Source: Pelosinus sp. UFO1 (lineage in GTDB: Bacteria; Bacillota; Negativicutes; DSM-13327). Taken from it: DNA of 64,000 nucleotides. A model generated the notes under the pieces. It was given only the letters and a program-made list of their open reading frames with translations, had not been told where the DNA came from and searched no databases. Position numbers and translations under genes: made by a program. The stretch lies in the NCBI RefSeq assembly GCF_000725345.1, contig NZ_CP008852.1:3216001-3280000 (forward strand). Reading direction: 5' to 3'. Below, one piece after another: positions 1 through 17,803 of the stretch (its first letter is position 1; each line of letters opens with the position of its first letter).

Positions 1-157
1 CCACTAGTTTCCCAATAATTTCTTTACCAAGGGCTGATTCTTCTTTTCTTCCAGCTGACACTAACGCATCATAAACGTCCTCGGATAAATAATAGCAAGC
101 ATCCATGCACATCTTTGCTATCGCCTGAGTAATTTGCTCTACCTCAATTGTACGCAT
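1..157 (-). CDS. Fumarate hydratase-type (class I) alpha subunit, N-terminal part
   Basis: Only the first 52 codons are inside the window; the gene runs off the left edge. The visible residues (MRTIEVEQITQAIAKMC, then SEDVYDALVSAGRKEES and LGKEIIGKL) match the start of the alpha subunit of heterodimeric iron-sulphur fumarases, which hydrate fumarate to malate or, in glutamate fermenters, mesaconate to citramalate. I chose the ATG at 157 because a GGGGG ribosome site lies 6 nt upstream; an in-frame ATG at 163 has none. It lies downstream of aspartase, which makes fumarate, and near the methylaspartate operon, which makes mesaconate, so either substrate is possible. The family call is fairly secure; the substrate is inference. 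Confidence 0.8.
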   Translation of the reverse strand, partial: MRTIEVEQITQAIAKMCMDACYYLSEDVYDALVSAGRKEESALGKEIIGKLV

Positions 158-346
158 GCTCATCCCCCTATTCTAATATACAAGTGTATTATATCACAAA
201 CTTTTCAGGTAAACCACTTAATTGCTATGATAAGATAAAATTTATAGAATATTTGCGTTATGTAATTTCTACCATAGCAACGAAGAAATGTTTAACTTCC
301 ATGGCTACCTGGCAGCATTTTGACCAATGTCACTTAAATATTACAA

Positions 347-400
347 ATTTGCGGTCAAAAAGTACTACCACTACAGTAAGTATCCCTTTTGACCGCAAAT
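347..400 (-). terminator. Long hairpin downstream of aspartase
   Basis: Perfect 14-bp inverted repeat (ATTTGCGGTCAAAA at 347-360 and its complement at 387-400) around a 26-nt loop that can itself pair weakly. It starts 22 nt after the aspartase stop codon. No clean U-run follows, so it may terminate, stabilise the mRNA end or bind a protein. Confidence 0.5.
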
Positions 401-421
401 ATAATTCATCATATCATCTAG

Positions 422-1825
422 TTATTTTAAAAATTGTTTACCTGCAATACCTGGTTGTGTCATTTCACCTGGCGATAAAATAATTTCTAATTGATCTGCG
501 GTAAGTAACTTTTTAGAAATAACTAACTCTCTAACAGAAGCTCCTGTTTTTAACGCCTCTTTTGCAATAATTGAAGATTGTTCATAACCGATATGAGGTA
601 ATAATGCGGTAACAATGCCAACACTCTTATCAATCATTTCACGGCAACGTTCTTCATTGGCTTCAAGATCTTTCACACATTTGTAATTAAAAGTATTAAT
701 TACATTCGTTAAGATCGTTAAGGAATTAAAAAGATTATATGCCATTACTGGCTCCATAACATTAAGTTCAAACTGTCCATTTTCTACAGCCTGGCTAATA
801 GCCAAATCATTGCCCATAACTTGATAAGCTACTTGGTTCACAGTTTCGGGAATAACAGGATTTACTTTCCCAGGCATAATGGAAGACCCAGGTTGTTTCG
901 CCGGCAAGGATAGTTCCCCTAATCCACAACGCGGACCTGATGCCATAAGCCTAATATCATTAGCAATTTTACAGAATGCTAACGCAGTGACCTTTAAGGC
1001 ACTTGAAAACTCAGCAATTTGATCTGTATTTTGGGTAGCATCCACTAAATCAATGGCTGATTGAATCTCTTCACCTGTTAGCTTAGAAAGTTCTTCTACT
1101 ACATATTTAATATATTCAGGTTCTGCATTTAGACCCGTACCAACTGCCGTAGCTCCCATATTTACAAAATGCATATTCCGCACATTTTCTTTAACCCTTT
1201 TAACCGCACGCTTTGTGGCTTGCGCATAGGCGTAAAACTCCTGACCTAAAGTAATGGGCACAGCATCTTGCAAATGAGTACGTCCCATTTTTAAAATATG
1301 ATTAAAGCTATCACCTTTTGCTGTAAAGGTAGCTTCCATTTCTTCTAACGCAGCAATTAGTTTTTTTGCTTTTGTAATTGTACAAATACGCATAGCTGTT
1401 GGCATTACGTCGTTTGTAGATTGAGCCATATTTACATGATTATTAGGTGAAATCAGAGCATAATCCCCTTTTTTCTCACCTAAGATTTCAAGGGCACGAT
1501 TGGCAATTACTTCGTTGGCATTCATATTCATGGATGTACCTGCTCCACCTTGAATACAATCAACGACGAATTGGTCATGTAATTTGCCTGCAATGATTTC
1601 TTCTGCAGCTTGTACGATGGCATTACCAATTCTGCTAGGCATACGTCCAGTTTTCATATTCGCTTTGGCCGCTGCCGCCTTTACAATACCAAAGGAAATG
1701 ATAAAATCATCATTTAATCTATGTCCAGTAATCACAAAGTTTTCTAATGCTCTAGTTGTTTGTACTCCGTAATAAACTTCATCTTTTATTTCAATTTCGC
1801 CAAGAAAATCATGCTCTAAACGCAC
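422..1825 (-). CDS. aspA: Aspartate ammonia-lyase
   Basis: Cytoplasmic lyase that deaminates aspartate to fumarate and ammonia. The 467-residue length is typical of aspartases. The fumarase/aspartase superfamily signature GSSIMPGKVNP is at residues 313-323, with the other conserved blocks TSMN (97-100), STND (136-139) and GRTH (181-184). Fumarase C is the nearest alternative. Aspartase is favoured by the N-terminus (RLEHDFLGEIEI, YYGVQT) and by the neighbouring asparaginase and glutamate genes. The start is a GTG at 1825 with GGAGG 9 nt upstream. With the secreted asparaginase and the downstream fumarase-type gene it forms a route asparagine to aspartate to fumarate to malate. Confidence 0.93.
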   Translation of the reverse strand: MRLEHDFLGEIEIKDEVYYGVQTTRALENFVITGHRLNDDFIISFGIVKAAAAKANMKTGRMPSRIGNAIVQAAEEIIAGKLHDQFVVDCIQGGAGTSMNMNANEVIANRALEILGEKKGDYALISPNNHVNMAQSTNDVMPTAMRICTITKAKKLIAALEEMEATFTAKGDSFNHILKMGRTHLQDAVPITLGQEFYAYAQATKRAVKRVKENVRNMHFVNMGATAVGTGLNAEPEYIKYVVEELSKLTGEEIQSAIDLVDATQNTDQIAEFSSALKVTALAFCKIANDIRLMASGPRCGLGELSLPAKQPGSSIMPGKVNPVIPETVNQVAYQVMGNDLAISQAVENGQFELNVMEPVMAYNLFNSLTILTNVINTFNYKCVKDLEANEERCREMIDKSVGIVTALLPHIGYEQSSIIAKEALKTGASVRELVISKKLLTADQLEIILSPGEMTQPGIAGKQFLK

Positions 1826-1944
1826 AATACAGCACCTCCACTAGTTTTTTCACCTTATTATAGCATGGCCTATGTATTTTGTATACAATATTCTTTCAAT
1901 TCGTTACAAAATTCATTCTATTCTAATAAGAGAAAATAACCTTC

Positions 1945-2994
1945 TCAATGTCGTGATGCACTGGCTTTTATTTTCTCTATAATTTGGGTGGCTGCCGGTG
2001 AACGTAAATACTGATAGGTAGTCTCAGGTACTAAAGTTCTTATTTCTTCCCATCCATCTTGTCTGATAAGCTCCCGCACTCTAGAGGCACTTACAACACT
2101 GCCTTGAATGGCAATCCTTGGCATTTCGAGCACATCAATATGATAAGTTGGTAAAATAGAGAGCATTGCTTCATTATATGCTCTTGTTACCGCACAATAA
2201 GGTTCATCTCCCACATACCGGCGGGTAATGCCCATAGCTGGCGCTATATATTGAGCAAATACAGTAACATCGAGTCTAGTTTGCGCTGTTACCGTTTCAT
2301 CTCCCCTTGTAAAGTAACCAGGGAAGGTTGCGGCAGATACAATATATTTACCGCCAGGAATAACCATTATATTATCATAAGCAGCCAATCCTTCCTTTAC
2401 CAAGCGAAAGCGAACATCAAAAGGAAACAAGGAACCTTCCTCACTTACTACCAATACAATAACAGCTGCATTTTCTTTGGCTGCTTTTGCAATGACTGCC
2501 TGATGCCCTAAAGTAAAAGGATTACAATTTACCACTAAAGCTGCCCGATTTCCTGCAGGTAAATTGGCCACCTGAGCAGCCAATTCCTTGCAATAGGTAG
2601 TAATTGATCCAATACCAGATTCCAATAGGACTGCGAAAGGCAGAGCCCTAGCGATTTCCTTGAAACCTAATTCTTTAAACAAATGTGCTTTGTCCGGTTT
2701 GGTGAAAATGAAGTAGTGATAAATGCCACGCCGTCCAGCTTCCTGCATTAAATGACTGATTACTGCTGATGTCAAACCCTCTCCCTGCAGGGATTCGTCA
2801 ATGGCGATATTTCTCAATATTTCTCCTGACAAAGAACCTGTAGCTACGATCTTATCTTCTTTATATAAAGCCATAGTATAATCTACTTTTTCGTTAAAAG
2901 TCAGTGAAAACCGGGATAAGAATTCCCTTACAGCGGTAACCTGTCTATCATTATTGAGGTTAATCACTCGCTCTTCTATATTACCCCATAACAT
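1945..2994 (-). CDS. citC: [Citrate (pro-3S)-lyase]/citramalate lyase ligase (acetate:SH-ACP ligase)
   Basis: Acetylates the prosthetic-group thiol of the lyase acyl carrier protein with acetate and ATP, which switches the lyase on. The 349 residues carry a GNAT-like N-terminal domain (about 1-125, acetyl-CoA loop region GEGLTSA at 71-77). A nucleotidyltransferase domain follows with the HxGH-type motif NPFTLGH at 158-164 and SASRVRELI near 305. Length and order match CitC. It is the last gene of the ACP-beta-alpha-ligase block; its start is 3 nt after the end of the alpha gene, with GGAGG 7 nt before the ATG. Because the block follows glutamate mutase and methylaspartase, the enzyme activated is more likely citramalate lyase than citrate lyase. 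Confidence 0.88.
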   Translation of the reverse strand: MLWGNIEERVINLNNDRQVTAVREFLSRFSLTFNEKVDYTMALYKEDKIVATGSLSGEILRNIAIDESLQGEGLTSAVISHLMQEAGRRGIYHYFIFTKPDKAHLFKELGFKEIARALPFAVLLESGIGSITTYCKELAAQVANLPAGNRAALVVNCNPFTLGHQAVIAKAAKENAAVIVLVVSEEGSLFPFDVRFRLVKEGLAAYDNIMVIPGGKYIVSAATFPGYFTRGDETVTAQTRLDVTVFAQYIAPAMGITRRYVGDEPYCAVTRAYNEAMLSILPTYHIDVLEMPRIAIQGSVVSASRVRELIRQDGWEEIRTLVPETTYQYLRSPAATQIIEKIKASASRH

Positions 2995-2996
2995 AA

Positions 2997-4538
2997 TTAG
3001 GCCTCCACTTGACGCACAACATCAATAATTGTGCCATCACGATACTCTACCACCGCAACAATATTTTCTCCAGTTTTTAAGTTTTTAGGTGTTCCTGCTA
3101 TTTTCTCGGCTAATTGTTTTAGTTCGCTTATATCTTTAACAGGTAGGCCAGCCGCAACTAACCTTTCTCTTAGATCGACTCTTCTAGGATTGACAGCCAC
3201 ACCCCGTTCTGTAACAAGGATGTCAATGGTCTCACCAGGCGTAGTAGCAGTCAGCACTTTATCCACAATAATCGGCAGACGACCACGCAATAAGTTCGCC
3301 ACAACAATAGTTACTTTTGCACCAGCTGCCGCATCCGCATGACCACCTGAGCCCCCCATAATGACACCATCAGAACCAGTAACTACATTTACATTAAAAT
3401 CAGTATCCATTTCAGTAGCGCCTAAGATTACCACATCTAGCTTATTAACGGCACAACCTGCATTAAAAGGGCTGGCATAAAAATCTGCACCAACTTCCAA
3501 GTGGTTTGGATTTTCTGCTATCGAACGAATGGCTTCTAAGTCAAAACCTTGAACATCCATTAGTTTTTTGAATAAGCCTTTTTCCAGCATATCTACCATA
3601 TAGCCTGTAATACCACCTAAGGCAAAACTACCTACAATATTATCTTTTTCCATCATTTTGCGTACAATAGAAGCTGTTGCTAAAGAAGCACCACCTGCTC
3701 CTGTTTGGAAGGCGAAACCATCTTTCAAAAGCCCAGTAGCTTGAATGACTTTTGCTGCTGTTTCCGCAATTTTAAGTCCAACTGGATCTTTGGTAATGCG
3801 AGTTGTGCCCGATACAATCCCCTTTGGATCACCAACACAATCAACTTTTACTACATAATCTACCCGGGTTTGTGGTATTGAAATAGGGGACAAAGGATAT
3901 TCGCCGAGAAAATCCGTAACAGCCACTACATGATCTGCATATTGGGCATCAGGAAATGCATAGCCTAATGATCCACAAGCGGCAGGTCCTTGCACACCAT
4001 TCAAATTTCCGTATTCATCCGCTGCAGGTGCAGCAATAAAAGCGACATCGATTTTAAGCTGCCCACTCTCAATGGCCCTTCCACGTCCGCCATGGGTGCG
4101 CAATATTACTGGTTTTTCAAATAAACCGCGAGATACTGCCTGTGCGACTGGACCGGACATATAGTTGGTATCTAGTGCCGTTACAACACCATTTTTTACA
4201 TGTTCAATCATCGGAGCATGAACAGGGAAAACAGAACTTAACGCCACTTTCAGATTTTTTAATCCTAACTGGGCAGCCGTTGCTAATACCATATTAACAA
4301 CTCCATCTCCATTTCTAAAATGGTGATGGAAAGATAATGTCATACCGTCTGTTACTGGTATCTTTTTAAATACTTCTACTAAATTATCTACTAGTTTATT
4401 ATCTGTAGGGCGCACACCTTTGACACTAGGTGCTTGCCTATTCATGTCTGGCTTTGTAGCAAAGGCACCCGCAAAAGGTTTAATTTTTCCAATGCCGGGA
4501 ATATTTTCAGGTATTTCACGTCCAATTGCATTTTTCAT
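2997..4538 (-). CDS. citF: Citrate/citramalate lyase alpha subunit (ACP transferase)
   Basis: Alpha subunit of the ACP-dependent lyase. It moves the activated acid onto the acyl carrier protein by exchanging acetyl-ACP for citryl- or citramalyl-ACP. The 513-residue length and blocks such as SFHHHFRNGDG and GGSGGHADAAAGAK are those of CitF. The stop codon of the upstream beta gene overlaps its ATG (TAATG at 4538), with a GAGGAGG site 7 nt before, so the subunits are translationally coupled. Substrate cannot be read from sequence; the operon context (methylaspartase upstream, mesaconate as product) favours citramalate, which would be split to acetate and pyruvate. Confidence 0.9.
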   Translation of the reverse strand: MKNAIGREIPENIPGIGKIKPFAGAFATKPDMNRQAPSVKGVRPTDNKLVDNLVEVFKKIPVTDGMTLSFHHHFRNGDGVVNMVLATAAQLGLKNLKVALSSVFPVHAPMIEHVKNGVVTALDTNYMSGPVAQAVSRGLFEKPVILRTHGGRGRAIESGQLKIDVAFIAAPAADEYGNLNGVQGPAACGSLGYAFPDAQYADHVVAVTDFLGEYPLSPISIPQTRVDYVVKVDCVGDPKGIVSGTTRITKDPVGLKIAETAAKVIQATGLLKDGFAFQTGAGGASLATASIVRKMMEKDNIVGSFALGGITGYMVDMLEKGLFKKLMDVQGFDLEAIRSIAENPNHLEVGADFYASPFNAGCAVNKLDVVILGATEMDTDFNVNVVTGSDGVIMGGSGGHADAAAGAKVTIVVANLLRGRLPIIVDKVLTATTPGETIDILVTERGVAVNPRRVDLRERLVAAGLPVKDISELKQLAEKIAGTPKNLKTGENIVAVVEYRDGTIIDVVRQVEA

Positions 4539-5410
4539 TATTTTACCTCCTCAATCAAACCTAAAAGCCGTGCCAAATGTAAAATACGCTCTGCACGATT
4601 CACGATAGGTAAATCAACCATCTTACCATTCAAAGAAGCTACACCAGATCCTTCAGCTTCCGCTTTACGAATGGCGTGGATGACTTGCTCAGCCCAGTCA
4701 ATGTCACTCATACTAGGATTAAAGACATTGTGAATTGTATCAATTTGCCTAGGATTAATGGACAATTTCCCTTTAAAACCAAGACTTTTAGCTAGTTTAG
4801 TATCAGCAAGTAATCCTTTCTCATCGTTAGCATCTGTGTAGGGAGTATCAATGGATTGAATCCCTGCAGCAGCTGCCGCATTAATCACAAGGGTACGTGC
4901 TGTAAAAATTTCATTTCCTTCTCTGGTACGCATAGCACCTAAGCCTGCCGTGTAATCTTCTGCTCCTAGGGATAGAGCAACCACTCGCTTATCCGCCTTC
5001 GCAATCGAATAGGCTTCGGCAATCCCACAAGGTGTTTCTAATAAAGCAATAATTTTTACTGGAGTCTGCCCTGGTTTTTCTACTGCCGCAATCATGGACA
5101 CTACTTGATGAATATCTGCTGCACTTTCTACCTTAGGCACTAATATTGCATCAGGACAACAAGGAACAATTGCTTTAATATCTTCGGCAGCAAAAGTATC
5201 TAACGGATTAATCCGAACCACCTTTTCGCTAGTTCCATAATCCACTGTTTGTAAAGCATGAGCTATTAAAAACCGAGCCGCATCTTTTTCCATTGGAGCT
5301 ACTGCATCTTCTAAATCCAGAATTACTGAATCTGCACCAAATACACCACCATTTTGTAACATGCCCGGATTATTTCCTGGAATAAATAACATACTTCTTC
5401 TCAAATCCAT
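4538..5410 (-). CDS. citE: Citrate/citramalate lyase beta subunit
   Basis: Beta subunit, a TIM-barrel lyase of the CitE/malyl-CoA lyase family. It cleaves citryl-ACP to oxaloacetate, or citramalyl-ACP to pyruvate, leaving acetyl-ACP. It is 290 residues from the chosen ATG at 5410, the usual CitE length. MDLRRSMLFIPGNNPGM and DSVILDLEDAV near the N-terminus are family hallmarks, with EDYTAGLGAMRT and LSINPRQ further on. The reading frame stays open upstream to 5482, but the ATG at 5410 overlaps the citD stop (TAATG) and has AAAGGAGG 10 nt before it, so the longer form is rejected. Confidence 0.92.
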   Translation of the reverse strand: MDLRRSMLFIPGNNPGMLQNGGVFGADSVILDLEDAVAPMEKDAARFLIAHALQTVDYGTSEKVVRINPLDTFAAEDIKAIVPCCPDAILVPKVESAADIHQVVSMIAAVEKPGQTPVKIIALLETPCGIAEAYSIAKADKRVVALSLGAEDYTAGLGAMRTREGNEIFTARTLVINAAAAAGIQSIDTPYTDANDEKGLLADTKLAKSLGFKGKLSINPRQIDTIHNVFNPSMSDIDWAEQVIHAIRKAEAEGSGVASLNGKMVDLPIVNRAERILHLARLLGLIEEVK

Positions 5411-5703
5411 TACAGCATTTCCTCCTTTAGCACTGCACCAGCACGACTTAAGGCTGCCAGTAAACGAGCGCAAATCGTGCAATCCAAAGCTCCCCGATCC
5501 ACTGCTTTTATATAAATATCTGTTATATCCTGTTTCTGAACCGTACTAAGTAAAATGGCTTTTATGTCTTCGCCATATTGGGCTAATACTATACTTTCTA
5601 CTTCTATTACAATACCGCTATCTTTTGCACCAGGTGTAACTGTAATCATAACGTCGCTTGATTCTAACGTACCCGCTTGAGCCGTTTTGCTAATACTTGC
5701 CAT
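5410..5703 (-). CDS. citD: Citrate/citramalate lyase acyl carrier protein (gamma subunit)
   Basis: Small carrier subunit (97 residues) that bears the phosphoribosyl-dephospho-CoA group. The region AGTLESSDVMITV at residues 10-22 corresponds to the modified-serine motif of CitD; by alignment with Klebsiella CitD the serine of LES (Ser15) is the attachment site. The C-terminal GALDCTICARL is also typical. The start at 5703 has GGAGG 8 nt upstream. No citX or citG gene, needed to make and attach the prosthetic group, is present in the window, so these must be elsewhere. It opens the lyase block of the glutamate fermentation operon. Confidence 0.9.
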   Translation of the reverse strand: MASISKTAQAGTLESSDVMITVTPGAKDSGIVIEVESIVLAQYGEDIKAILLSTVQKQDITDIYIKAVDRGALDCTICARLLAALSRAGAVLKEEML

Positions 5704-5759
5704 TGATGTAGCCTCCTTATATAAGAAAAAACGAAATATACTCTAATGTTGATGCTCTT

Positions 5760-5794
5760 ATGGGTACTGCCTTCAAGATGAAGACAGTACCCAT
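5760..5794 (-). terminator. Hairpin between the P-loop gene and citD
   Basis: Stem ATGGGTACTG/CAGTACCCAT (10 bp), one mismatch, then CTTCA/TGAAG around a 3-nt loop. It lies 22 nt after the stop of the P-loop protein and before citD. There is no U-run, so it may be a partial terminator or an RNA-processing or stability element that separates the mutase and lyase halves of the operon. Confidence 0.5.
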
Positions 5795-5815
5795 TTATAG
5801 CTTAATTATACACTT

Positions 5816-6748
5816 TTACATAGAAGCATGATAGATCATGCCGGAAAAACCATCGAGATTTTCCACCTGAGGTCCTACTAAACCAATAATGAGATAGGTT
5901 TTGGTTTTCGGATCATATTTATATTCATACATTAATCGGAAGCCTTCAATATCTTCCGTGTTGTGTACGTGAGTACGAGGGCCTGTGCAAGCCCAAGAAA
6001 CATCACCAATTTGAATATGACCTTCATCGGAATAACAAACCTTTACACCTTCATCAATGATGGCCCCGACCTTTTTTTCTACTTCTTTAAGATTCGCATC
6101 AAGTTCTACTGGATATTCTAACACAAAACCATGATGAACATCCCGATGTCCGAAAGGTAAAATAGCACCATAGTCTTTTAACAAAATACTTTCTGTTAAA
6201 TCTTCAGCTGTATGAGCCATTTTACGATATCGTAATGTCTTGATTACCACGTCCGCAATTTCTTGGGGAAAAGGACCAAAAACATTAGGACGAACAACAA
6301 TTACTTCTCCGCCTACACCTAAGAGTACATCTGCATTCATGCCCAGAATAGGATATAGTAAATCAAAATGCTCTACAATTACCCTCTTATCGTGAGAGAG
6401 TGCTTGCTTTATCGCCTCTGCTAATACATGAATTTGTGTGAATGCTAGTTCGAAGCGAACATCAATATGATAGGTATGACTGGTAAAAAAATCTTTTTCA
6501 ATATTTTTCAATATTGGTAAAGGCCGTACATTCACCCCATCATCATCATTTGTTAATTCTAGCCCAGGAAACATCCCTTTAATTAAGGAAGATTTTCCTG
6601 CACCAGGACCACCTACGATGCCAATTAGCCGATCAAGGGGTGACAAATAGCGTTCGCTAATCTGCTGCCCCAAGACAAACATTCGATTGCGTCCTCTTGG
6701 TGCAAAATAACTAGCGTGCATTAGTTGTTCATGCATTAACATTCTCAT
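5816..6748 (-). CDS. P-loop nucleotide-binding protein with a tRNA-synthetase-SAD-like C-terminus
   Basis: Function unknown. A Walker A motif (GGPGAGKS, residues 46-53) sits in a kinase-like N-terminal half. The C-terminal third has a set of possible metal ligands, H201, H205, H206, C254, H260 and H262, in the strings HRDVHHG and ACTGPRTHVHNTEDI. The latter resembles the CGGTHV-NT motif of the second additional domain (SAD) of threonyl- and alanyl-tRNA synthetases. It lies 3 nt after methylaspartase and just before the lyase block, so it is very probably co-transcribed with the glutamate pathway. It could be a kinase, a chaperone or activator, or a metal or cofactor loader. The weak ribosome site (AAGG, 8 nt) suggests translational coupling. 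Confidence 0.6.
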   Translation of the reverse strand: MRMLMHEQLMHASYFAPRGRNRMFVLGQQISERYLSPLDRLIGIVGGPGAGKSSLIKGMFPGLELTNDDDGVNVRPLPILKNIEKDFFTSHTYHIDVRFELAFTQIHVLAEAIKQALSHDKRVIVEHFDLLYPILGMNADVLLGVGGEVIVVRPNVFGPFPQEIADVVIKTLRYRKMAHTAEDLTESILLKDYGAILPFGHRDVHHGFVLEYPVELDANLKEVEKKVGAIIDEGVKVCYSDEGHIQIGDVSWACTGPRTHVHNTEDIEGFRLMYEYKYDPKTKTYLIIGLVGPQVENLDGFSGMIYHASM

Positions 6749-6751
6749 ATA

Positions 6752-8002
6752 TTATGCCTTACGCGCCTGACGCACTGCTAAAATACGTTGCATTTCGTTA
6801 TAAACGATCATTACACCTTCATCTACACCCATACCTGGTTTAGCCAACATTTGTACAGGTTTGGTTGCCATAGCAAGATGCACGCAAACTTGTGCTGAAC
6901 GATCAGTTTCGTTGCAAGTACCGCCTTGGTATGCACCTACACCTTTTTCTTTACAATACAAGACAGCTTCAATAGTGTTATTAATACCACCCAAATCAGG
7001 AGTTTTAATTTGCAGCATATCGCCAGCATTGTTGTCAGCAAAATATTTAATATCTTCTAACGTATTACACCATTCATCGGCAACAACTTCTACATTGATT
7101 TTTTCTTCATGCAAGCGAGCTGTTATTTCTTTTAAAGCTAACATTTGTTTTTCGCGATCTTCTACATCCATAGGTCCTTCAATTCTAAGTTTCAAAGGAG
7201 CTGCAGCTTTTTCTAATTTTGCAAAATAGCTTACCATCTTTTCAGTATCAAGATTAAACGCTGCGCCAATTGTACCATATACATCAATATGAAGTACTGG
7301 ATTATAGGACTCGCTAGTACGCAAGCTCAATACACGATCTTTAAGCCATGTAACATATTCTAGTAATAATTCGCCGTTTTTACCTAGTTTTTCTTCTACA
7401 TTATTAATCAAAGCGTGAGGCAGAACTTGAGCACCTTTGATGATCATTTTGTCAGCGTTATCATAACGATTGTCCCCTGATTGAGTAAAGATGTTGATTT
7501 CTTCTTCACTAACTGTAGTGTTGTATTCTTCAGCAACTACTTCACACATCAATTTATGTTTTGCTTTGGATACCGCATCTAAGATAGCTTGGGTTACACC
7601 ATAACGTAATGCAGTATGAATTAATTTGCCTGATTTAGCATCTTTCATGCTATCAATTTCTTCAGCTAATTCTCTGAAAGAATTTAGTTCACGTCCTACT
7701 AAACGAGGTTTAATTTCTTGCTCAATTACAGGAATAAAATCTTCTGCTAAAAATAAAGGATCACGTCCGCCTGCTCCGCTATATTGTACTGCTGCGCAAT
7801 CTCCATATGCTACTTGTCCATCTTCCAGAAGAATCATAACAGATACTGCTTCACCAGACTGACGAATAGAGTGAAATCCTGGAGTAACGGGATCCCCTAC
7901 ATACGTAAAACCATCATGTTGAGCACCAGCTTTAATAGCCCGTTGATCATCAAAATAAAAACCTGTACGACCTTTAGAACATACAACGTTTACAATTTTC
8001 AT
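6752..8002 (-). CDS. mal: Methylaspartate ammonia-lyase (methylaspartase)
   Basis: Enolase-superfamily lyase that removes ammonia from (2S,3S)-3-methylaspartate to give mesaconate, second step of the methylaspartate pathway. The chosen protein has 416 residues, close to the 413 of Clostridium tetanomorphum. By alignment with that enzyme the Mg ligands are D240, E275 and D309, the catalytic bases K333 (in QIKTPDLGG) and H196. All are present, so the enzyme should be active. The ATG at 8002 has GGGAG 7-8 nt upstream. An in-frame upstream ATG at 8041 is rejected because it falls in a strong hairpin and lacks a ribosome site. Confidence 0.95.
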   Translation of the reverse strand: MKIVNVVCSKGRTGFYFDDQRAIKAGAQHDGFTYVGDPVTPGFHSIRQSGEAVSVMILLEDGQVAYGDCAAVQYSGAGGRDPLFLAEDFIPVIEQEIKPRLVGRELNSFRELAEEIDSMKDAKSGKLIHTALRYGVTQAILDAVSKAKHKLMCEVVAEEYNTTVSEEEINIFTQSGDNRYDNADKMIIKGAQVLPHALINNVEEKLGKNGELLLEYVTWLKDRVLSLRTSESYNPVLHIDVYGTIGAAFNLDTEKMVSYFAKLEKAAAPLKLRIEGPMDVEDREKQMLALKEITARLHEEKINVEVVADEWCNTLEDIKYFADNNAGDMLQIKTPDLGGINNTIEAVLYCKEKGVGAYQGGTCNETDRSAQVCVHLAMATKPVQMLAKPGMGVDEGVMIVYNEMQRILAVRQARKA

Positions 8003-8030
8003 TATTACACTCTCCCTACTTATTTTCATG

Positions 8031-8067
8031 ATGACAGGCAAAAAGTACAGTACTTTTTACCTGTCAT
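8031..8067 (-). promoter_or_regulatory. Intercistronic hairpin between glutamate mutase E and methylaspartase
   Basis: Near-perfect inverted repeat: ATGACAGG at 8031-8038 with its complement at 8060-8067, and AAAAAGTAC with GTACTTTTT, with a single G-U pair and a minimal loop. It fills the gap after the glmE stop and before mal. It could limit read-through or be a processing and stability site that sets the mutase to methylaspartase ratio. Confidence 0.55.
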
Positions 8068-8091
8068 TCTTAATTATTTGTTGTTCTTATC

Positions 8092-9546
8092 TTACTTGTT
8101 AGGTCTGCCGACTAAGCGACCTTTTGAAATGGCATAAATGTCATCAATAACCATTTGGAAACTTGCTTTACGGCCTTCAGCTTTAGCACGCTCATCAATT
8201 TTACCTTTATGGAAATCAATTATATCTTGCGTGAATGGCAGATTTCCTACATCAAATAAACGTACAGCGCCATTATTATCACGAGCTGGCAAAATTTTAT
8301 TCAATGAATATTGGCTAGGAGCGAATGGTACGTCAAGTACGCCTGCTTCAAAAGCACGAACGCTGCCGACTGCATAATCTCCGTTACCAAGTGCAAATAC
8401 TTTATCTAAAATACAACGTGTTTCCGCTTTGATCATCGCTACTTCTATATCTACTTCTGCAGTCATAGGGAATGGCTGATCTGCCAGCATATTAATTAAT
8501 TGTTTTGTTGCACGAAGCCCCATAGCATTCGCTTCTTTGGTTGGAATACCTAAAGCTTCATGAGGAGTCTTAACGATAACTTTTGTAGCTTTCGCTAATG
8601 CAGCAGCTGCCGCACCCCAAGAAATTACAGCAAAAGCCTTCGCTTCATCTTGCGGGAAGCCCCCCATCCATTGATGGAATACAGTTGTTAATACACAATC
8701 GCCATAACCGTGTTTTGCTAAATATTCTTCAGCCAATTGTTCCAATGCTTTAATGGCTGCGACATCCTGGAACAAGTTACCACATTGGCCATAGCCCAAA
8801 GTGATATTTTTAACACCTTGTTCAGCTGCTAAAATACCTTCGATAATAGCTACTGCATGGGAAACACAAGGTGGTACTAAGGTACCAGTTAATGGTCCAA
8901 ATGGCTCACGATTAATTTCAATACCATGCTCTGCATAAATACCCACTAAGCGGTCATTATACTGCCAGTCTAAAATTGTTTTTTCTAACGATACACTTTT
9001 TGCATAAGGGATATTGTAGGAAATACCGCCACCTTCGTAGGAGGTAAAACCACCAGCCAAAGTAATTTCCGTTAATAAACGAGCATCAGGAGTACCATGA
9101 CGTACTTGTAAAGGACCATCAACACTTTCTACTAATTTACGTACACCATGAACACCATGATTTACTGCAGGAAAGCCATTAAGTAGAGAACGACCAGCTT
9201 TCATGCTTTCTTCAATCGCATTAGCACAATTTTCGTATTGATTTTGACGAGTATAACTATCAATAGTAGTAGGCAGAAGATCAGCTTCCCCTTCTTTACG
9301 TAAGAAATTTAGAAGATTAATATGTTCATCTAATAACGCTACCCCTGCTCTAGGTTGTGTTAATGTTTCACCATTCTTTTTCGCTTTTACTAAACGTTTT
9401 GCAAAATGTTTTTTAGCTGGAATCGTTTCATGATATTTTACGGCTTCCTCAAAATTTACATCTGCACCTGTTGGCCAATGATTTATAATCTCTTTGCGTA
9501 CAGCATAAAATTCATCATGGGTCCACTTCTTATTTTTTAATTCCAC
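8092..9546 (-). CDS. glmE: Glutamate mutase epsilon (E) subunit
   Basis: Catalytic TIM-barrel subunit of adenosylcobalamin-dependent glutamate mutase, which rearranges L-glutamate to (2S,3S)-3-methylaspartate by a radical mechanism. The 484-residue length matches MutE/GlmE of clostridia, and blocks such as [33 protein letters not shown] and LGYGQCGNL are characteristic. It starts with GTG at 9546, GGAGG 8 nt before, and 5 nt after the end of mutL. The neighbours encode the B12-binding subunit and the reactivating factor, so the whole mutase system is in one operon. Confidence 0.95.
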
Positions 9547-9551
9547 AACTG

Positions 9552-10934
9552 TTACCTCCGCACAATATATTTTTTCATCATTCTTACTGCAATATCAGGA
9601 TATTCTTCACCTAACAGCCCCATAGATGCCATAATATAGTCTTCGTCAATTAAGAACTTAGGACATCCTGGTTTTAACATAGTCGGTGTACTTTCGCTAT
9701 ATGTCGCGCCTTTTAAAATCTCATTGGGTTGTTCATGGTGGACAATCACACCACCAGTTCCTACCACTGTTTGTACCTCACTTAGGTCTTTCCCTTTTTG
9801 TACATAAGCGGAACCAGCTAGAGTAAATACAGTTTCAAGTTGTCCGACATGACGTTCTACCGCCAAGCAGGTACAAACTCTCCCCATAGAAATTTCCACT
9901 TTTCTTTCTACATCATTTTGCGGTAAATATTCGATATTTTCTTCAACTTTTTTCACATAGGCTGCTACATCGTCTTCAGAAACGCCCGCATAATCTGCAA
10001 TTCTTTTTACACTGGCTGCTCTGACTAAGGCTGTTGCGCTATAGCGCATTCCTAGGTCGCCTTCTACTGTACGTTTAGCAAAGGGTTCTGGCAGGCCTCT
10101 TAGGGCAACATTGTTTTTGGTTGGATCACCTTTGGCTATAGAATATACATCCGTAGTGGCCCCGCCAATATCAATTACCATAAGATCTCCCAAACCTGAT
10201 TCGTACTGGGTACCTTTTCCTAATAATTCAGCAGCCTTTAGCACTGCAGCTGGTGTTGGCATCACCATGCGGTCCACAAATTGATTCGCCCGGTTGAGAC
10301 CCTTTGCTTCCACAATACGTCTTAAAAACACACCGCGGATAGTTTCTCGGGCTGGCTCAATATTTAATTCATTTAGCTTAGGCATTACATTTTCTGTATG
10401 TACCACCTCTGTCATACTTTCGGATAAAATTCTAACAACCTGTGGTGCTACAGACTTATTACCTGCTACAATGACGGGAATATCTTTACCAAGATTCGTC
10501 AGCATTCTGGCGTTATGCAATATAACTTCCTTATTACCACCATCTGTACCGCCAGCCAATAAAATAATTTCAGGATTTAAATCAGCTATTTCTTTTATTT
10601 CATATTCATTTAATTCATTACCATAAACACCCATTATCTTGGCACCAGCCCCTAAAGCAGCTCTTTTAGCTGCTTCCGCTGTAAGTTCAGGGACTAATCC
10701 GACGGCTACCATTTTCAAGCCACCAGCTGCACTAGAACATCCTAATACCTTTATAAATTCAAGCTTACCAGTTTTTGAAAATAATTCGCCTAAAGCTTGA
10801 TTAAGTCCTTCCATAATATCAGTTTCTACAGTGGTAATACCACGAGCAGTACCTAATACTATTTCTTTTTCAATATCCACTGCGGTAATCTTGGTGTAGG
10901 TACTACCAAAATCAATCAGTAAAATATTTTTCAT
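9552..10934 (-). CDS. mutL: Glutamate mutase reactivating/accessory protein MutL
   Basis: ATPase of the actin/Hsp70 fold found between the S and E genes of glutamate mutase operons. It is thought to exchange damaged cobalamin and so keep the mutase active. Phosphate-binding motifs are [10 protein letters not shown] near residue 5 and [14 protein letters not shown] in the middle, with [12 protein letters not shown] between them. The length (460) is normal for MutL/GlmL. I chose the ATG at 10934 (AAGGGAG 8 nt upstream) over the adjacent GTG at 10937. This is not the DNA mismatch-repair MutL despite the shared symbol. Confidence 0.92.
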
Positions 10935-10947
10935 CACAAAGACTCCC

Positions 10948-11364
10948 TTACATACCTAAATCATTCTTTAAATCAATCACGACTTGATCTGGAAGTATGC
11001 CTGGCTCATATACTCTGTCATAACCCATTTCAATAAATTTATTGTGTACTTCAGTAAAATCAGTTTTACCAACTACCAAATTACCACCAACGTACAAGAG
11101 AATATCGCCTAGACCAGCCTCACGACAACGATCTTTCAATCCACGGCAATCAATTTCTCCATGTCCATAAAGAGATGCTACTAGAATAGCCTTTGCATCT
11201 GTTTCAATAGCGGCATTTACAAACTCTTCTTGTGGAACGAGTACCCCTAAATTGATTACTTCAAATCCTGCGGCACTTAACGCATAATTTAAAATTTTGT
11301 TACCCACAGCGTGACAATCGGCTCCAATAACTCCCAAAACCACTTTAACTTTACTGTTTTCCAT
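10948..11364 (-). CDS. glmS: Glutamate mutase sigma (S) subunit, cobalamin-binding
   Basis: Small B12-binding subunit (138 residues) of glutamate mutase. It carries the base-off/His-on motif D16-x-H18-x-x-G21 in the string [12 protein letters not shown], where the histidine coordinates cobalt, followed by LYGHGE and the GGNLVVG loop. The frame is open up to 11412, but the ATG at 11364 has AAAGGAG 8 nt upstream and gives the normal MutS length, so the longer N-terminus is rejected. It is the first enzyme gene after the regulator. Not related to glucosamine synthase GlmS or mismatch MutS. Confidence 0.94.
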
Positions 11365-11412
11365 CCTAACTACTCCTTTGTCATTAAATTCTACATGTAG
11401 TATTTTCATCAT

Positions 11413-12369
11413 TTAGAGTGCCTGGCTAATCAATTTCATCATAACCTGATTTAAAGATCCACGATCAATTTCATAATAGAAAGTAATAACTTCGTGAACA
11501 TCACTAACCATTTGGCGTACGAGCATCTCACGCTCTTCACTAACAATTACTACCTTATAATCAGCAATAAAAGCACTTACCTCTGCATAGTCACTTGATT
11601 GTATCACTTTAAAATCTAGGTGATTGATCGCCGTTTTTTCCAATAACTTCTTTAGATTAGCTACGAATTCATTGGATTTCGCTACAATTGGCACTTGGGT
11701 ATTGGCAGGTAAGCGAGCTAATTTGATAACCGCTTCCAGATTTGGTACAGTAGCTACCCCAATGACCTTGTGTGCATTACCCATTAAACCAACTACTGTT
11801 GTTTGGTGCACCAGAGTAGTAACAACCAAATCACATGCCTGTAATAATTCAATAGGTATTTTTCCTGCTACTAATTCAGATAATATTACCGTTTCAAAAC
11901 GCACATTTGCAATTTGCCCAATCTGATTAATAAAACGTTGAATATATTCTGAAGCACAGTCGACGACAGCTACTCGCAGCTCTTTTACTGCTTGATTTTT
12001 CTCTATAGCTCGTATACTGGCAATAGCAGCAAATTGATCCACTGTAAAACCTAGTTCTACTACTTTGGACATTGCCTCATCAATAATTTTAACCAGTCGT
12101 TCTCTTTTGCCGCCCACTACTGTGTCGTTTGCATCATCAGTAGTGTTTTTCACATAAGTTCCCCGCCCTTGCTGTGCTTCCAGCACACCTTCAAGCAGCA
12201 ATTCCTTATACGCGGCACTCACAGTATTCCGACTGACTTCCAATATAGTGGATAATTCTCGCTCAGTTGGAATCTTGGCTCCAGGAAGATACTCTCCAGA
12301 TTTTATTTTGTCCAAAACATAACTTTTAATCTGCAAATAGATTGGAATACCCACTCGCTGTAAAATCAT
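11413..12369 (-). CDS. GntR-family transcriptional regulator of the glutamate mutase operon
   Basis: Winged-helix GntR domain at residues 8-75 (GIPIYLQIKSYVLDKIKSG, then GAKIPTERELSTILEVSRNT), like YtrA/MocR-type members. The rest of the 318 residues is not an aminotransferase, UTRA or FadR domain that I recognise; it looks like a Rossmann-type ligand-binding domain. It is the first gene of the operon, with the glmS ribosome site just after its stop, and a palindrome (12383-12410) sits just upstream of its start. It probably controls the pathway and itself, perhaps in response to glutamate or an intermediate (inference). The ATG at 12369 has GGAAGGTG 5 nt upstream; a TTG at 12384 is less likely. 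Confidence 0.82.
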   Translation of the reverse strand: MILQRVGIPIYLQIKSYVLDKIKSGEYLPGAKIPTERELSTILEVSRNTVSAAYKELLLEGVLEAQQGRGTYVKNTTDDANDTVVGGKRERLVKIIDEAMSKVVELGFTVDQFAAIASIRAIEKNQAVKELRVAVVDCASEYIQRFINQIGQIANVRFETVILSELVAGKIPIELLQACDLVVTTLVHQTTVVGLMGNAHKVIGVATVPNLEAVIKLARLPANTQVPIVAKSNEFVANLKKLLEKTAINHLDFKVIQSSDYAEVSAFIADYKVVIVSEEREMLVRQMVSDVHEVITFYYEIDRGSLNQVMMKLISQAL

Positions 12370-12382
12370 TTCTGCACCTTCC

Positions 12383-12410
12383 AAATTGGATTAATCCATT
12401 GATCCAATTT
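12383..12410 (-). promoter_or_regulatory. Palindromic operator candidate upstream of the GntR gene
   Basis: Perfect 9-bp arms AAATTGGAT (12383-12391) and ATCCAATTT (12402-12410) with a 10-nt spacer. It lies 14 nt upstream of the regulator start in the otherwise gene-free promoter region, where an autoregulating GntR protein would bind. Binding is inference. Confidence 0.5.
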
Positions 12411-12567
12411 ATTGTTCATGTCTTATTATGTCATATCTTTTAACAAAAGGCAATATCTTTTTTACTAAATTGGGTAAAGAATCTGAAAAATCTAATTGTT
12501 AATTTTGTATCCTTGTTCTATAAATAAATCATAGATTTTATTATTAAATACTAGGATACCTATCAAA

Positions 12568-12616
12568 TAAAGGGTCCATGTTAACTCAGCACTAGGCTGG
12601 TAACATGGACCCTTTA
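12568..12616 (-). terminator. Terminator of the asparaginase gene
   Basis: A 16-bp perfect stem (TAAAGGGTCCATGTTA and complement) closes a 17-nt loop that can pair further. It is followed on the minus strand by a T-rich run and lies 44 nt after the asparaginase stop, before the promoter region of the GntR operon. Confidence 0.8.
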
Positions 12617-12659
12617 TACTTTTAGCTATTCTTCTATTTAGAATTTACTTAAAAGCTTT

Positions 12660-13742
12660 TTAATATTCCCAAAACATCCGTTGGATTTCTTTTACATCAT
12701 TTGTTTTGGTGAGCGCTAGCATCAATAATATGCGGGCCTTTTGAGGATTTAAGTTATCACTAGCGATGAAACCATATTTATCATCATCTGCTTCCCCATT
12801 GCGAGCAATAATGCCGCTGCCAACGCGAGCACTTCTTACTACTACTACACCTTTTTTAAGAGCATTTTCAATTGCTGGGTATTCCGCTTTACCAATACTA
12901 CCATCACCAGTTCCAGCATGGACAATACCTTTTGCGTCTGCATGTACAGCAGCATCAATCATCGTACCAGCGTTACCAGCATAGTGGTAAACAATATCAA
13001 CACGAGGTAGCGTAGTCAAGTTCGTAACATCAAATTCTGTAGCAGTAGTATTTTTACGTAAGGATTGGCGATAGAATACAGGTTTGTCACCCGTGAAAAC
13101 ACCAAGTGCACCAATAATAGGAGCTTGGAAGGTATCTACGCGGTCCGTAATTGTCTTTGTTACTTCCCGACCAGCATTAATGGTATCGTTAAGCATAACC
13201 ATTACACCTTTACCAGCAGCTTCCTTTGTACCAGCAAGAATTACAGCACGGTACAGATTGAGAGGACCATCAGCACTCATAGCGGTGCCAGGACGCATGG
13301 ATCCAACTAGGACAACAGGTTTATCACTTTTTACCACTAAATCAAGGAAATATGCAGTTTCTTCTAATGTATCAGTACCATGAGTAATAACAATACCATC
13401 TACATTATCTTGAGCAAGAAGTTGATTAACGCGTTTTGCTAAAGTAAGCCAAATGTCCATTGTCATGCTTTCACTAGCAATTTGAGCCACTTGCTCTCCG
13501 CTTACATTTGCCACCTTTGTAAGCTCAGGAACGTTGGAAATAAGCTTGTCTACCGGGGTTACAGCAGCGGTGTAACCAACTGTTGTGGTACTAGTAACAC
13601 CTGCACCTGCAATGGTGCCTCCAGTCGCAAGAATTACAATATTAGGTTTTGCTGGGGCCTCTGCCGCAAGCACGACAGCTTGAAAACTAAAAACCAGTAG
13701 ACATAATGTAACGAAAATTCCTAGGATGCGTTTGTTAATCAT
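12660..13742 (-). CDS. ansB: Type II L-asparaginase, exported
   Basis: Hydrolyses asparagine to aspartate and ammonia outside the cytoplasm. The N-terminus (MINKRILGIF, then VTLCLLVFSFQAVVLA) is a classic signal peptide, with cleavage likely after VVLA at residue 26. Both active-site signatures are present: ATGGTIAG (39-46) and THGTDT (120-125), giving the nucleophilic Thr43 and the Thr123-Asp124 pair. The length of 360 fits the secreted class. It has its own promoter region and terminator. Its product would feed aspartase and the symporter encoded nearby. Confidence 0.94.
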   Translation of the reverse strand: MINKRILGIFVTLCLLVFSFQAVVLAAEAPAKPNIVILATGGTIAGAGVTSTTTVGYTAAVTPVDKLISNVPELTKVANVSGEQVAQIASESMTMDIWLTLAKRVNQLLAQDNVDGIVITHGTDTLEETAYFLDLVVKSDKPVVLVGSMRPGTAMSADGPLNLYRAVILAGTKEAAGKGVMVMLNDTINAGREVTKTITDRVDTFQAPIIGALGVFTGDKPVFYRQSLRKNTTATEFDVTNLTTLPRVDIVYHYAGNAGTMIDAAVHADAKGIVHAGTGDGSIGKAEYPAIENALKKGVVVVRSARVGSGIIARNGEADDDKYGFIASDNLNPQKARILLMLALTKTNDVKEIQRMFWEY

Positions 13743-13766
13743 AATACCACTCCTCTTTAAAAATTT

Positions 13767-13789
13767 TTAATCGTCAATTTGACAATTAA
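13767..13789 (-). promoter_or_regulatory. Inverted repeat upstream of asparaginase
   Basis: Arms TTAATCGTCAA and TTGACAATTAA pair at 10 of 11 positions, 25 nt upstream of the asparaginase start. A protein-binding site is plausible, perhaps for the neighbouring GlnL-like regulator, but nothing in the sequence ties it to that regulator. Confidence 0.35.
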
Positions 13790-13883
13790 ATAGTATTTCT
13801 TCAGTACTTTTGTAAATCCTTCCAACCTAAGTAGACAATTTTATAAAATTTTAAATTTTCAATTAAATATATACAAAAATAAT

Positions 13884-13920
13884 GATCCTAACTACTTACA
13901 CTCAGGTAGTAGCCAGGATC
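13884..13920 (-). terminator. Terminator of the GlnL-like regulator gene
   Basis: GATCCT...AGGATC and CTAC/GTAG segments form an imperfect stem, followed on the minus strand by ATTATTTTTG. It lies 5 nt after the response-regulator stop. Confidence 0.7.
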
Positions 13921-13925
13921 GAGCT

Positions 13926-14783
13926 TTAATGTTCAGCAATAAACAATAAACCTTCAATAAACTTCTTTACATTGATTTTTCCACGGTATTGACTTTTTCC
14001 TTGAATAAAATTCATTTCTTGCCTTACCTCTTTGAAGTCAAATAAGGAAGAACTATGAGATTGGAATGTTTCATTATAGTAATCATCAATTCCAACATTG
14101 GCAAGGTTGTGCAGCCCTTTCATAGTGGTGCGTCGCACACGTTGTTCAATGGATTTTGCATCTTGTCCTAATTCTTCTGCCATTTCCTGATATATATCAA
14201 TTAATTGATAGGACTTGCTTTCCGTTCCTTGCTTAATAAGTAACTGTACCATCCGGTAAATATCCTTTACCCCCGCCTCCCCAATGATTCCTAGATCCGA
14301 GAACACTTTGTAAATACGGCTCTTTTGTGTATTTTTAGCCCCCTCATCCACTGTCCGAACATGGGAAAACTGTGAAATGGTCTCTTGCATTAAAGACATA
14401 AGCTGTTTCAATTTTCGATGTTCTCGCACTTTATTAATAACAGAGACAGTTTCGATTACATTAATTGGCTTATGTATAAAAAATTCGATCCCCGCTTTGT
14501 AAGCCTGGGTAATTAGCTGTTCACTAGTGGCCTCTGAAACCATAATAAAAGAGGTGTTCGTTCCGGCTGCTGTCACTTTTTCAATTAATTTTACGCCATC
14601 TTGTCCTGGCAGCAGTAAATCAACTAGTGCAATGTCAGGCTGACATTCTTGTATCACTTTTTCCCCTTTTAATCCATCATTGCACTCCTCAATTACGACT
14701 CCTAATTCATTTTGTTTAATAATTCGTTGAAGTATCCTACAGATACCAGCATCATCATCCACAATTACAAAACGTAAGGACAT
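13926..14783 (-). CDS. Response regulator, GlnL (YcbB) type
   Basis: Receiver domain at residues 1-120 (acidic pocket in FVIVDDDAG, phospho-Asp in IALVDLLLPG, K in FIHKPIN). A C-terminal YcbB-type DNA-binding domain follows, as in Bacillus subtilis GlnL, which with its kinase GlnK responds to glutamine. The string YKAGIEFFIHKPIN is strongly GlnL-like. It pairs with the kinase gene upstream and sits beside a divergent glutamate/aspartate symporter and asparaginase, which are the probable targets. I chose the ATG at 14783 (TAGGTG 7 nt upstream); the upstream codons to 14825 are not supported. Length 285. Confidence 0.85.
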   Translation of the reverse strand: MSLRFVIVDDDAGICRILQRIIKQNELGVVIEECNDGLKGEKVIQECQPDIALVDLLLPGQDGVKLIEKVTAAGTNTSFIMVSEATSEQLITQAYKAGIEFFIHKPINVIETVSVINKVREHRKLKQLMSLMQETISQFSHVRTVDEGAKNTQKSRIYKVFSDLGIIGEAGVKDIYRMVQLLIKQGTESKSYQLIDIYQEMAEELGQDAKSIEQRVRRTTMKGLHNLANVGIDDYYNETFQSHSSSLFDFKEVRQEMNFIQGKSQYRGKINVKKFIEGLLFIAEH

Positions 14784-14886
14784 TGTAACGCACCTACTTT
14801 CTAATAAAAAAAATACCAATCCCAAATTCCGAATTGTTGTTTCACTAACAGCTAATACTATGAATTGGAATGAATTATTAAATTTG

Positions 14887-16233
14887 CTATTTATTCATGT
14901 CATTTCCCTCTACGATTATACTAGAGCGGGGAAGTGCAATAAAAAACCTAGTGCATATACCCGGATTCGATTCTACCCGAATAGTACCACCGAATAATTC
15001 AATATAATCTTTCACATGAGCTAAACCAAGCCCAGTTGATATTTTACCAGTCCGTGGTGAAAATTTTGTGGAATAGCCGGGGTTAAAAATCAAATCAAAC
15101 TCTTCTTGATCAATACCCGTGCCGTTATCTTCTACGCAAAAAAACACCTCATCCTTTGATGTGGTTTCCGTCACTCTAATCATTCCATTGTCACCGCAGG
15201 CCTCAATGGAGTTGATAAGTAGGTTGTCCAGTATAGAGACTAAAGTATAATGCCTGTCGGTAATAAAATCTTCTGTTTGTTCATAGGTCACACTAATTTT
15301 TTTATTTATGACATTAAGGTAGCGTATCGTATTTTGTTCAATAATATACAAAATATCAGACAGCTTTATCTCTTGCGCCTTACTTGTTGTCTTGAGAATG
15401 TTTTCAATTCCTGTCTTAACACGGTAATAATCTTTTTTCACCTCATGAATTTCTCTTGCAACTCCTAAAGCCTGGTCAGCTAATAATGGCTGGGCTTGAT
15501 GGATTTCTTGTTTTTGAGAATTCAATTGTGTATAAAGTAAATAGGCTTTTTCCATAACATCTTCAATGTCTTGGGATGATTTCTCAAGATAAAATAATTC
15601 GCTCTTCAATTTGGCTACCATAAGAGTCTGTTCAATGTAGCGTTCTGCTTGCTCATTAGCTAATATGAAAGATTGATACTGTTTTAACACATAGTAACCA
15701 ATGGTAGCTAAAATCGCTCTTACAACCGCTACTACTATAATACTGGGTAGAATCAGAGCAAATTTAGCAGGGATTAACTCTGAACGGAAGAGAAGCTCTA
15801 CCACATTACTGATAATATCAGTCATACTTAAAAGCAGAATCAATTCCAGTATATTATCGGTACGATCGCGAACCGATAATAGATAAAACAAGGAACCAAA
15901 GGAAATATAATATGCCAAAGCAGGTAAATTCGTTAAAATGGCACCTGTGTAGCTATTGGCACCCGATAAAAAGTCAATTGTTGTCCGAAAAATTAAAATT
16001 ACCAATCCTGTGATTACTGTGCCAGAAACGATGGGTAATTGTTCAAAGAATAATAAGAAGGTTGTCAATAATACAATAGCTAAGGTAAAACGAAAGTAAC
16101 TACCAAAAGGATAAATATATACTATGCTAGTTAAGGTTACAAGCAACACTGTGCTTAATAAGGGTTTCTTTTTTTCCCATACTTCTTTGATAAAATTGCT
16201 GACCTTATTCACTTTTTCTAAGAAAGAAACCAA
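14887..16233 (-). CDS. Sensor histidine kinase, GlnK (YcbA) type
   Basis: Membrane sensor with about six hydrophobic segments in residues 20-195, a coiled linker (about 200-270), and an HATPase domain at the C-terminus with N box (LINSIEACGD), G1 (DNGTGID) and G2 (STGLGLAHV). The phospho-accepting histidine box is degenerate, as in other GlnK/DcuS-like kinases. It lies directly before the GlnL-like regulator and divergent to the symporter. The frame is open to 16500 but has no good ATG. A TTG at 16233 with AAAAGGAG 10 nt upstream gives 448 residues and leaves a normal divergent promoter region, so I prefer it. Ligand is probably glutamate or glutamine (inference). Confidence 0.78.
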   Translation of the reverse strand: MVSFLEKVNKVSNFIKEVWEKKKPLLSTVLLVTLTSIVYIYPFGSYFRFTLAIVLLTTFLLFFEQLPIVSGTVITGLVILIFRTTIDFLSGANSYTGAILTNLPALAYYISFGSLFYLLSVRDRTDNILELILLLSMTDIISNVVELLFRSELIPAKFALILPSIIVVAVVRAILATIGYYVLKQYQSFILANEQAERYIEQTLMVAKLKSELFYLEKSSQDIEDVMEKAYLLYTQLNSQKQEIHQAQPLLADQALGVAREIHEVKKDYYRVKTGIENILKTTSKAQEIKLSDILYIIEQNTIRYLNVINKKISVTYEQTEDFITDRHYTLVSILDNLLINSIEACGDNGMIRVTETTSKDEVFFCVEDNGTGIDQEEFDLIFNPGYSTKFSPRTGKISTGLGLAHVKDYIELFGGTIRVESNPGICTRFFIALPRSSIIVEGNDMNK

Positions 16234-17782: not shown

Positions 17783-17803
17783 AAAATAATATAAACAATT
17801 CTT

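Follow-up and report, generated by a model that had tools for sequence, protein, structure and literature searches.

The window analysed here is a stretch of 64,000 nucleotides from Pelosinus sp. UFO1 (contig NZ_CP008852.1, positions 3,216,001 to 3,280,000), in which the genes of a glutamate mutase and of a citrate/citramalate lyase follow one another in an operon on the minus strand. The gene order starts with a GntR-type regulator (11413-12384; an ORF named from its sequence, with homologues at the same operon position) and continues with GlmS, the S subunit of glutamate mutase (10948-11412; TIGR01501, 203 bits), the mutase accessory ATPase GlmL (9552-10937; NF040745, 673 bits), the catalytic E subunit GlmE (8092-9546; TIGR01503, 797 bits; PDB 6h9e_B, E 8.2e-222) and methylaspartate ammonia-lyase (MAL, 6752-8041; TIGR01502, 604 bits). 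Glutamate mutase is a B12 radical enzyme, and GlmL is its known reactivase. After the gene under study come the lyase acyl carrier protein CitD (5410-5703; TIGR01608, 84 bits), the beta subunit CitE (4538-5482; TIGR01588, 330 bits, under its cut-off of 443), the alpha subunit CitF (2997-4538; TIGR01584, 677 bits), the lyase ligase CitC (1945-2994; TIGR00124, 310 bits) and an aspartase/fumarase II-like member of the operon (422-1825). The genome as a whole contains six citF genes over cut-off.

The gene between the mutase and lyase parts, at 5816-6748, encodes a protein of 310 amino acids for which we coin the name SADP. The sequence-only reading of this DNA had recognised the ORF correctly, with the amendment that it lies on the minus strand, where it is open throughout; frame 1 of the plus strand has many stops across the same positions. 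Its placement 3 nt after methylaspartase and ahead of the lyase acyl carrier protein agrees with the coordinates, the gap being 3 nt because MAL ends at 6752. Within the 112-nt spacer between SADP and citD lies a perfect 16-bp hairpin (5760-5794, minus strand), recognised from sequence and fold, with no T run after it. The segment that holds it (5700-5822) folds at -33.6 kcal/mol (z -4.16), and the hairpin may set the mutase genes of the operon apart from the lyase genes. An Rfam scan of positions 1-20000 gave no family at its threshold.

Taken alone, the SADP of the window scores below the cut-off of every Pfam and NCBIfam family. Its closest relatives, among the matches listed with a species name, are from Pelosinus, five loci having 89-93% identity and a sixth 79%. 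An alignment of 70 sequences (A1), composed of the window SADP and 69 of the best 80 of 98 loci, contains 40 invariant columns, and the AlphaFold2 model of the protein has a mean pLDDT of 86.6 and a pTM of 0.82. Several other leads were set aside: solved relatives found by sequence search were mainly P-loop matches (best 60 of 78), long Foldseek alignments to PLP enzymes had an rmsd over 11 Å and were disregarded, and libraries of defence and phage proteins gave weak matches only, mostly P-loop.

The Walker A NTPase half noted earlier stands, and can be described more exactly as TsaE-like. Residues 8-159 (6272-6727) match TsaE/YjeE/YdiB in Foldseek and VIA-align with Z 9.1-9.8 (1htw_A, Z 9.8, 3.2 Å over 122 residues; 6n9a_E, Z 9.7), the next P-loop family reaching Z 7.8. 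The SADP profile aligned by hhalign with 19 TsaE proteins gives 93.9% and E 1.6e-7, the E value being that of a single comparison. Pfam TsaE is matched at E 0.1 by 43 of the 70 members, scanned singly (best E 7.2e-4), and ABC_tran by 37 (best E 0.0041); TIGR00150 (TsaE) is matched at E 0.01 by 10 of 70 (best E 0.0013), below the curated family cut-off, and the window SADP itself has no TsaE family match at E 1. Predicted fold, profile and the Pfam matches of relatives thus agree on a TsaE-like ATPase domain. Besides the fold, SADP shares with TsaE the Walker A motif G-x-G-A-G-K-[ST], present as GGPGAGKS (residues 46-53, 6590-6613; G51, K52 and S53 invariant in the 70 sequences), the HxD motif and a catalytic-type glutamate, E126, and it would presumably hydrolyse ATP. 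However, three motifs conserved in the 19 TsaE proteins are changed: an acidic conserved loop, LTNDDxGVNVRPLP, stands in place of the SPTF switch, HxDxYR has become H94xD96xR98, and EW has become E126 H127. Unlike TsaE, which serves bacterial tRNA t6A synthesis, SADP is fused to a SAD domain, and TsaE proper is encoded elsewhere, being over cut-off in 21 of the 22 genomes tested, the window's own included.

Residues 168-297 (5858-6247) match the editing domains of AlaRS, AlaX and ThrRS in Foldseek and VIA-align with Z 9.6-13.0, for example 2zzg_B (Z 13.0, 2.4 Å over 122 residues), 2e1b (Z 12.8), 1qf6_A (Z 12.1) and 1tje (Z 11.2). The comparison by hhalign with eight ThrRS/AlaRS SAD segments gives 96.5% and E 8.1e-10, again for a single comparison, and 59 of the 70 members match Pfam tRNA_SAD at E 0.1 (best E 3.8e-5); PF07973 scores 14.9 bits on the window SADP against a cut-off of 24. 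Fold, profile and relatives' Pfam matches agree here as well and predict a SAD domain of the type found in ThrRS and AlaX. In ThrRS, AlaRS and AlaX these are editing domains, whose pocket takes the terminal adenosine carrying the amino acid. SADP has in common with them the fold, the H and C/H motifs and a TGEI..F stretch, but it has no synthetase or TGS domain, and about 25-30 alignment columns ahead of the C motif are missing from it. Fusions of TGS, SAD and nucleoside kinase also join a SAD to a P-loop domain; as they are generally described, they are set apart from SADP by another domain order and another P-loop family.

The metal motifs of SAD domains, HxxxH and CxxxH, take the form HxxxD and CxxxxxH in SADP. 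By hhalign, H179xxxD183 (in AHTAED; 6200-6214) aligns with HxxxH of ThrRS/AlaRS, and C254 and H260 of C254TGPRTH260 (5969-5989), which is two residues longer than CxxxH, align with their C and H. All four residues are invariant in A1, as is R258, an extra residue of the C motif; the SADP of one genome outside A1 (G061) has E at the place of D183. H179, D183, C254 and H260 are likely the metal set of SADP and would together bind the metal. The sequence-only reading had proposed a comparison of the predicted structure with AlaX and ThrRS, which returned the SAD fold, and had seen a resemblance to the zinc motif of these domains in HRDVHHG and CTGPRTH. The latter (254-260) is indeed the C/H counterpart, but the profile alignment places the partly conserved HRDVHHG (residues 201-207, 6128-6148) against the ThrRS stretch leading into GFYYDF and not against metal residues. 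Its reservation that the fold or an intact metal site might be missing is answered for the fold and keeps some force for the site, where both motifs are altered.

In the open-licence literature, no paper was found whose title or abstract start describes SADP. Part of PMC4682846 describes glutamate mutase clusters in which mal is followed by an uncharacterised DUF1446 protein, and that part mentions no protein like SADP.

SADP relatives, GlmE and MAL were searched in the same phylum sample of 398 genomes. SADP relatives occur in 73 genomes, GlmE in 89 (79 over cut-off) and MAL over cut-off in 73. SADP and GlmE are found together in 71 of the 73 SADP genomes (64 with GlmE over cut-off), the two exceptions being G014, whose SADP is broken, and G269, whose assembly is 63% complete. 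Among the 325 genomes without SADP, 307 are also without GlmE, and three of the remaining 18 have only marginal partial GlmE matches. The Fisher p of 1e-58 for this link treats genomes as independent, the counts being uncorrected for kinship. A profile search with A1 for a diverged SADP in the 15 genomes with clear GlmE and no SADP found none (0/15), which means that GlmE can work without SADP. MAL is over cut-off in 61 of the 73 SADP genomes and not in the other 12; conversely, SADP is present in 61 of the 71 sampled genomes having both GlmE and methylaspartase, and ten have GlmE and MAL over cut-off without SADP, one of them 61% complete and two with MAL in pieces. In these last two (G307 and G088, loci L126 and L127), the breaks, which affect CitF likewise in G088, reflect either pathway decay or sequence errors.

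GlmS and CitF were searched in 80 genomes, 65 of them with SADP, eight congeneric SADP genomes being left out. CitF passes its cut-off in 6 of the 65 genomes with SADP and in 5 of the 15 without. Of the 65, 13 have GlmS under cut-off or absent. Once G014, G269 and also G100, where the SAD half of SADP is lost, are set aside, ten genomes remain that have a full SADP and no GlmS over cut-off; nine of them lack MAL over cut-off as well. All ten have a GlmE or GlmE-like match. GlmL is over cut-off in none of them (0/10), with sub-cut-off GlmL-family matches in G061 (two, full-length) and G120 (one, partial). GlmL was considered as a required partner of SADP, since the proteins that TsaE works with come from the ATPase superfamily to which GlmL belongs too, and was rejected on seven full-SADP genomes without any GlmL-family match. 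Weak B12-domain matches were found in all 80 genomes, so other B12 proteins exist there, and the GlmE-like proteins may have a B12 subunit other than GlmS. What SADP closely co-occurs with is GlmE, not GlmS, GlmL, methylaspartase or the lyase.

The most altered GlmE-like proteins belong to a family of six genomes (f24) in which the GlmE-like match ends 48-56 nt ahead of the SADP match. Compared with the window GlmE, they have 9-12% identity over residues 1-150 (five genomes) and 27-32% over residues 151-390, and 43-48% over the last ~90 residues. Nine positions that we take to be key in GlmE (R66, R100, R149, E171, Y177, Y181, H291, K326 and E330) are all changed in the five readable genomes, in an alignment that is uncertain there, an earlier one showing R66 and E330 in one row. 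SADP of the same genomes keeps 38-39 of the 40 invariant residues, including the P-loop and the candidate metal residues; R98 of the HxDxR motif is lost in four of six. For the pair of lowest dS (1.12, itself high), SADP has a dN of 0.089 and a dN/dS of about 0.08, and the GlmE-like gene a dN/dS of about 0.26; across f24 pairs, dN of the GlmE-like gene is about 2-4 times that of SADP. The GlmE-like barrel therefore appears to have lost its active site, judged by alignment, while SADP is well conserved. Among other GlmS-less genomes, G042, G084 and G120 have GlmE-like proteins that keep the substrate arginines, and four without SADP keep 48-58% identity in the GlmE barrel and 47-60% in the C-terminus. 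Eleven loci (L130-L133, L135-L139, L142 and L144) encode GlmE-like proteins in genomes where GlmS is not over cut-off; rph is often adjacent, and some have a single HGD-D protein with its BcrA-type ATPase as neighbours. Some of these GlmE-like proteins keep the substrate arginines and others have lost them. On a GlmE tree of 79 rows, with 11 near-copies left out, the SADP label needs 8 changes, and long branches among the GlmS-less rows make their placement unsure.

The gene neighbourhoods agree with this distribution. Among the best 80 of 98 SADP loci, 56 have GlmS, GlmL, GlmE or MAL nearby (60 bits or more), and the homologues are not mainly outside mutase and lyase operons, an outcome that would have spoken against the sequence-only reading. 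At the same threshold, class I fumarase-type genes are near 41 of these loci, AtuA or DUF4387 near 26, Cit genes near 23 and rph near 12. For 20 of the 27 loci without GlmE nearby, the gene was sought in the rest of the genome, and all 20 genomes have it, 19 of them with a match over cut-off. In many genomes SADP directly precedes rph, and rph is present in 19 of 23 regions with an unbroken or half SADP among L135-L159, regions picked by hand and partly for oddity. Two genomes, G330 (L141) and G126, have two tandem SADP genes away from GlmE, located before rph in G330. Outside the phylum, Prevotella nigrescens (Bacteroidota) has a single run of glmS-glmL-glmE-mal-AtuA-DUF4387-SADP-fumarase genes, an arrangement that suggests joint transfer of these genes. 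Peptoclostridium acidaminophilum has its SADP gene flanked by citC and citX and a divergent mutase operon close by; being directly before citX, SADP is no stand-in for citX there. PLSDB records of Peptoclostridium and Prevotella annotate SADP as a hypothetical protein. An apparent DUF4387-SADP fusion (L015) proved to be an artefact of a stretch of undetermined bases and was discarded.

The genes that follow MAL vary as well. Within 6 kb of MAL, 63 loci comprise 22 with Cit, 32 with AtuA, 6 with HGD-D, 2 with AtuA and HGD-D, 1 with none and 0 with both Cit and AtuA (loci L040-L159, such as L061 and L125, and also L214; 16 too short were set aside and near relatives were kept). The AtuA-family protein (PF07287) with DUF4387 (PF14330) and CitDEF are thus mutually exclusive beside MAL, and the former pair is a candidate replacement of citramalate lyase.

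We tentatively favour, at a probability of roughly 0.35, the reading that SADP, with its two domains, is an accessory protein specific to GlmE and its GlmE-like descendants. In this role it would mature or repair GlmE at the expense of ATP, which the TsaE-like domain would hydrolyse so as to switch the SAD pocket between grip and release. An adenosyl group and an amino acid are both bound by GlmE, whose ligands or dead-end products would enter the SAD pocket. Contact with SADP could be made by the last ~90 residues of GlmE, which is speculation because the four SADP-less, GlmS-less genomes keep both barrel and C-terminus. The two domains, the co-occurrence in 71 of 73 genomes, the 20 of 20 traced loci, the GlmE or GlmE-like matches in all ten full-SADP genomes without GlmS over cut-off, the conservation of SADP in f24 and the Prevotella run count in favour. 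Against it count the loss of R98 in four of six f24 SADPs, the genomes having GlmE without SADP and the fact that SAD and TsaE domains otherwise act with tRNA; moreover, the linkage with GlmE may be partly inherited gene order beside rph. The GlmE reading also has to reckon with GlmL, which like SADP is an ATPase-type accessory encoded with GlmE; GlmL belongs to another ATPase superfamily, and SADP is found in genomes without it. Part of PMC4682846 describes MutL/GlmL as the reactivating chaperone of the mutase.

The main rival, possible but less probable, is editing in trans: the SAD domain would remove 3-methylaspartate or another amino acid of the pathway from tRNA, and the TsaE-like ATPase would drive tRNA binding or release. 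The SAD half matches the ThrRS, AlaRS and AlaX editing domains best, with its four candidate metal residues invariant in A1, and several SADP loci adjoin the gene for RNase PH, a tRNA-processing enzyme. The editor reading keeps some weight because both parts of the protein come from tRNA-acting families and 61 of the 73 SADP genomes have methylaspartase. However, the motifs are altered and the segment before the C motif is missing, nine full-SADP genomes are without GlmS and MAL over cut-off, and ten with GlmE and MAL are without SADP; a search on methylaspartate, tRNA and misacylation, in the part of the literature covered, returned just a Brucella proteome study. These nine and ten genomes likewise make less probable the earlier suggestion of protection against methylaspartate-like amino acids. 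The role as a GlmE accessory is preferred to that of a tRNA editor because SADP follows GlmE and not the making of 3-methylaspartate.

Somewhat more doubtful is a broader version that pairs SADP with the C-terminal module of GlmE in an ancient ATP-driven system separate from mutase catalysis, with tRNA-type parts servicing or sensing an amino-acid/adenosyl site; in some families the mutase would have been lost and the pair would persist beside rph with a new job.

It is improbable that SADP is a small-molecule enzyme, whose P-loop domain would activate a metabolite of the pathway and whose SAD domain would hydrolyse or hold it. The acidic loop in place of the TsaE switch fits such chemistry, as do the varying enzymes after MAL, which leave the chemistry there open; but SADP occurs with every variant seen (Cit, AtuA and DUF4387, HGD-D) and also in genomes without MAL, so no single pathway metabolite fits all. 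We consider it unlikely, too, that SADP is a housekeeping protein of the rph-rdgB neighbourhood, standing beside the mutase genes by inherited order. The frequency of rph in both sets of loci and the position of SADP away from GlmE in G330 and G126 would fit, but SADP stays with the mutase genes in rearranged, rph-less operons and in Prevotella, and 307 of the 325 SADP-less genomes lack GlmE as well. There is still less to recommend a variant partner of the t6A machinery (TsaB/TsaD) that would alter tRNA modification during glutamate fermentation: the N-terminal domain resembles TsaE most closely in fold, and TsaE, as stated in part of PMC9654439, activates TsaB/TsaD, but nearly all genomes tested have TsaE proper, and its SPTF switch and YR and EW residues are changed in SADP. 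Finally, activation of citramalate lyase or supply of its prosthetic group, both suggested by the sequence-only reading from the position next to citD and matched by the place between citC and citX in Peptoclostridium, is close to refuted, since CitF in 6 of 65 SADP genomes excludes a general role of this kind, many operons have AtuA and DUF4387 for CitDEF, citX itself is beside SADP in Peptoclostridium, and SADP does not regularly occur with the lyase, as would be expected of a maturation protein such as CitC, CitX or CitG.

SADP joins a TsaE-like ATPase with an editing-type domain, parts known otherwise from tRNA modification and proofreading. Present in most sampled genomes with GlmE and methylaspartase and surviving the loss of GlmS, it would be a missing accessory component; if instead it edits tRNA, it would be a translation safeguard tied to a catabolic pathway.
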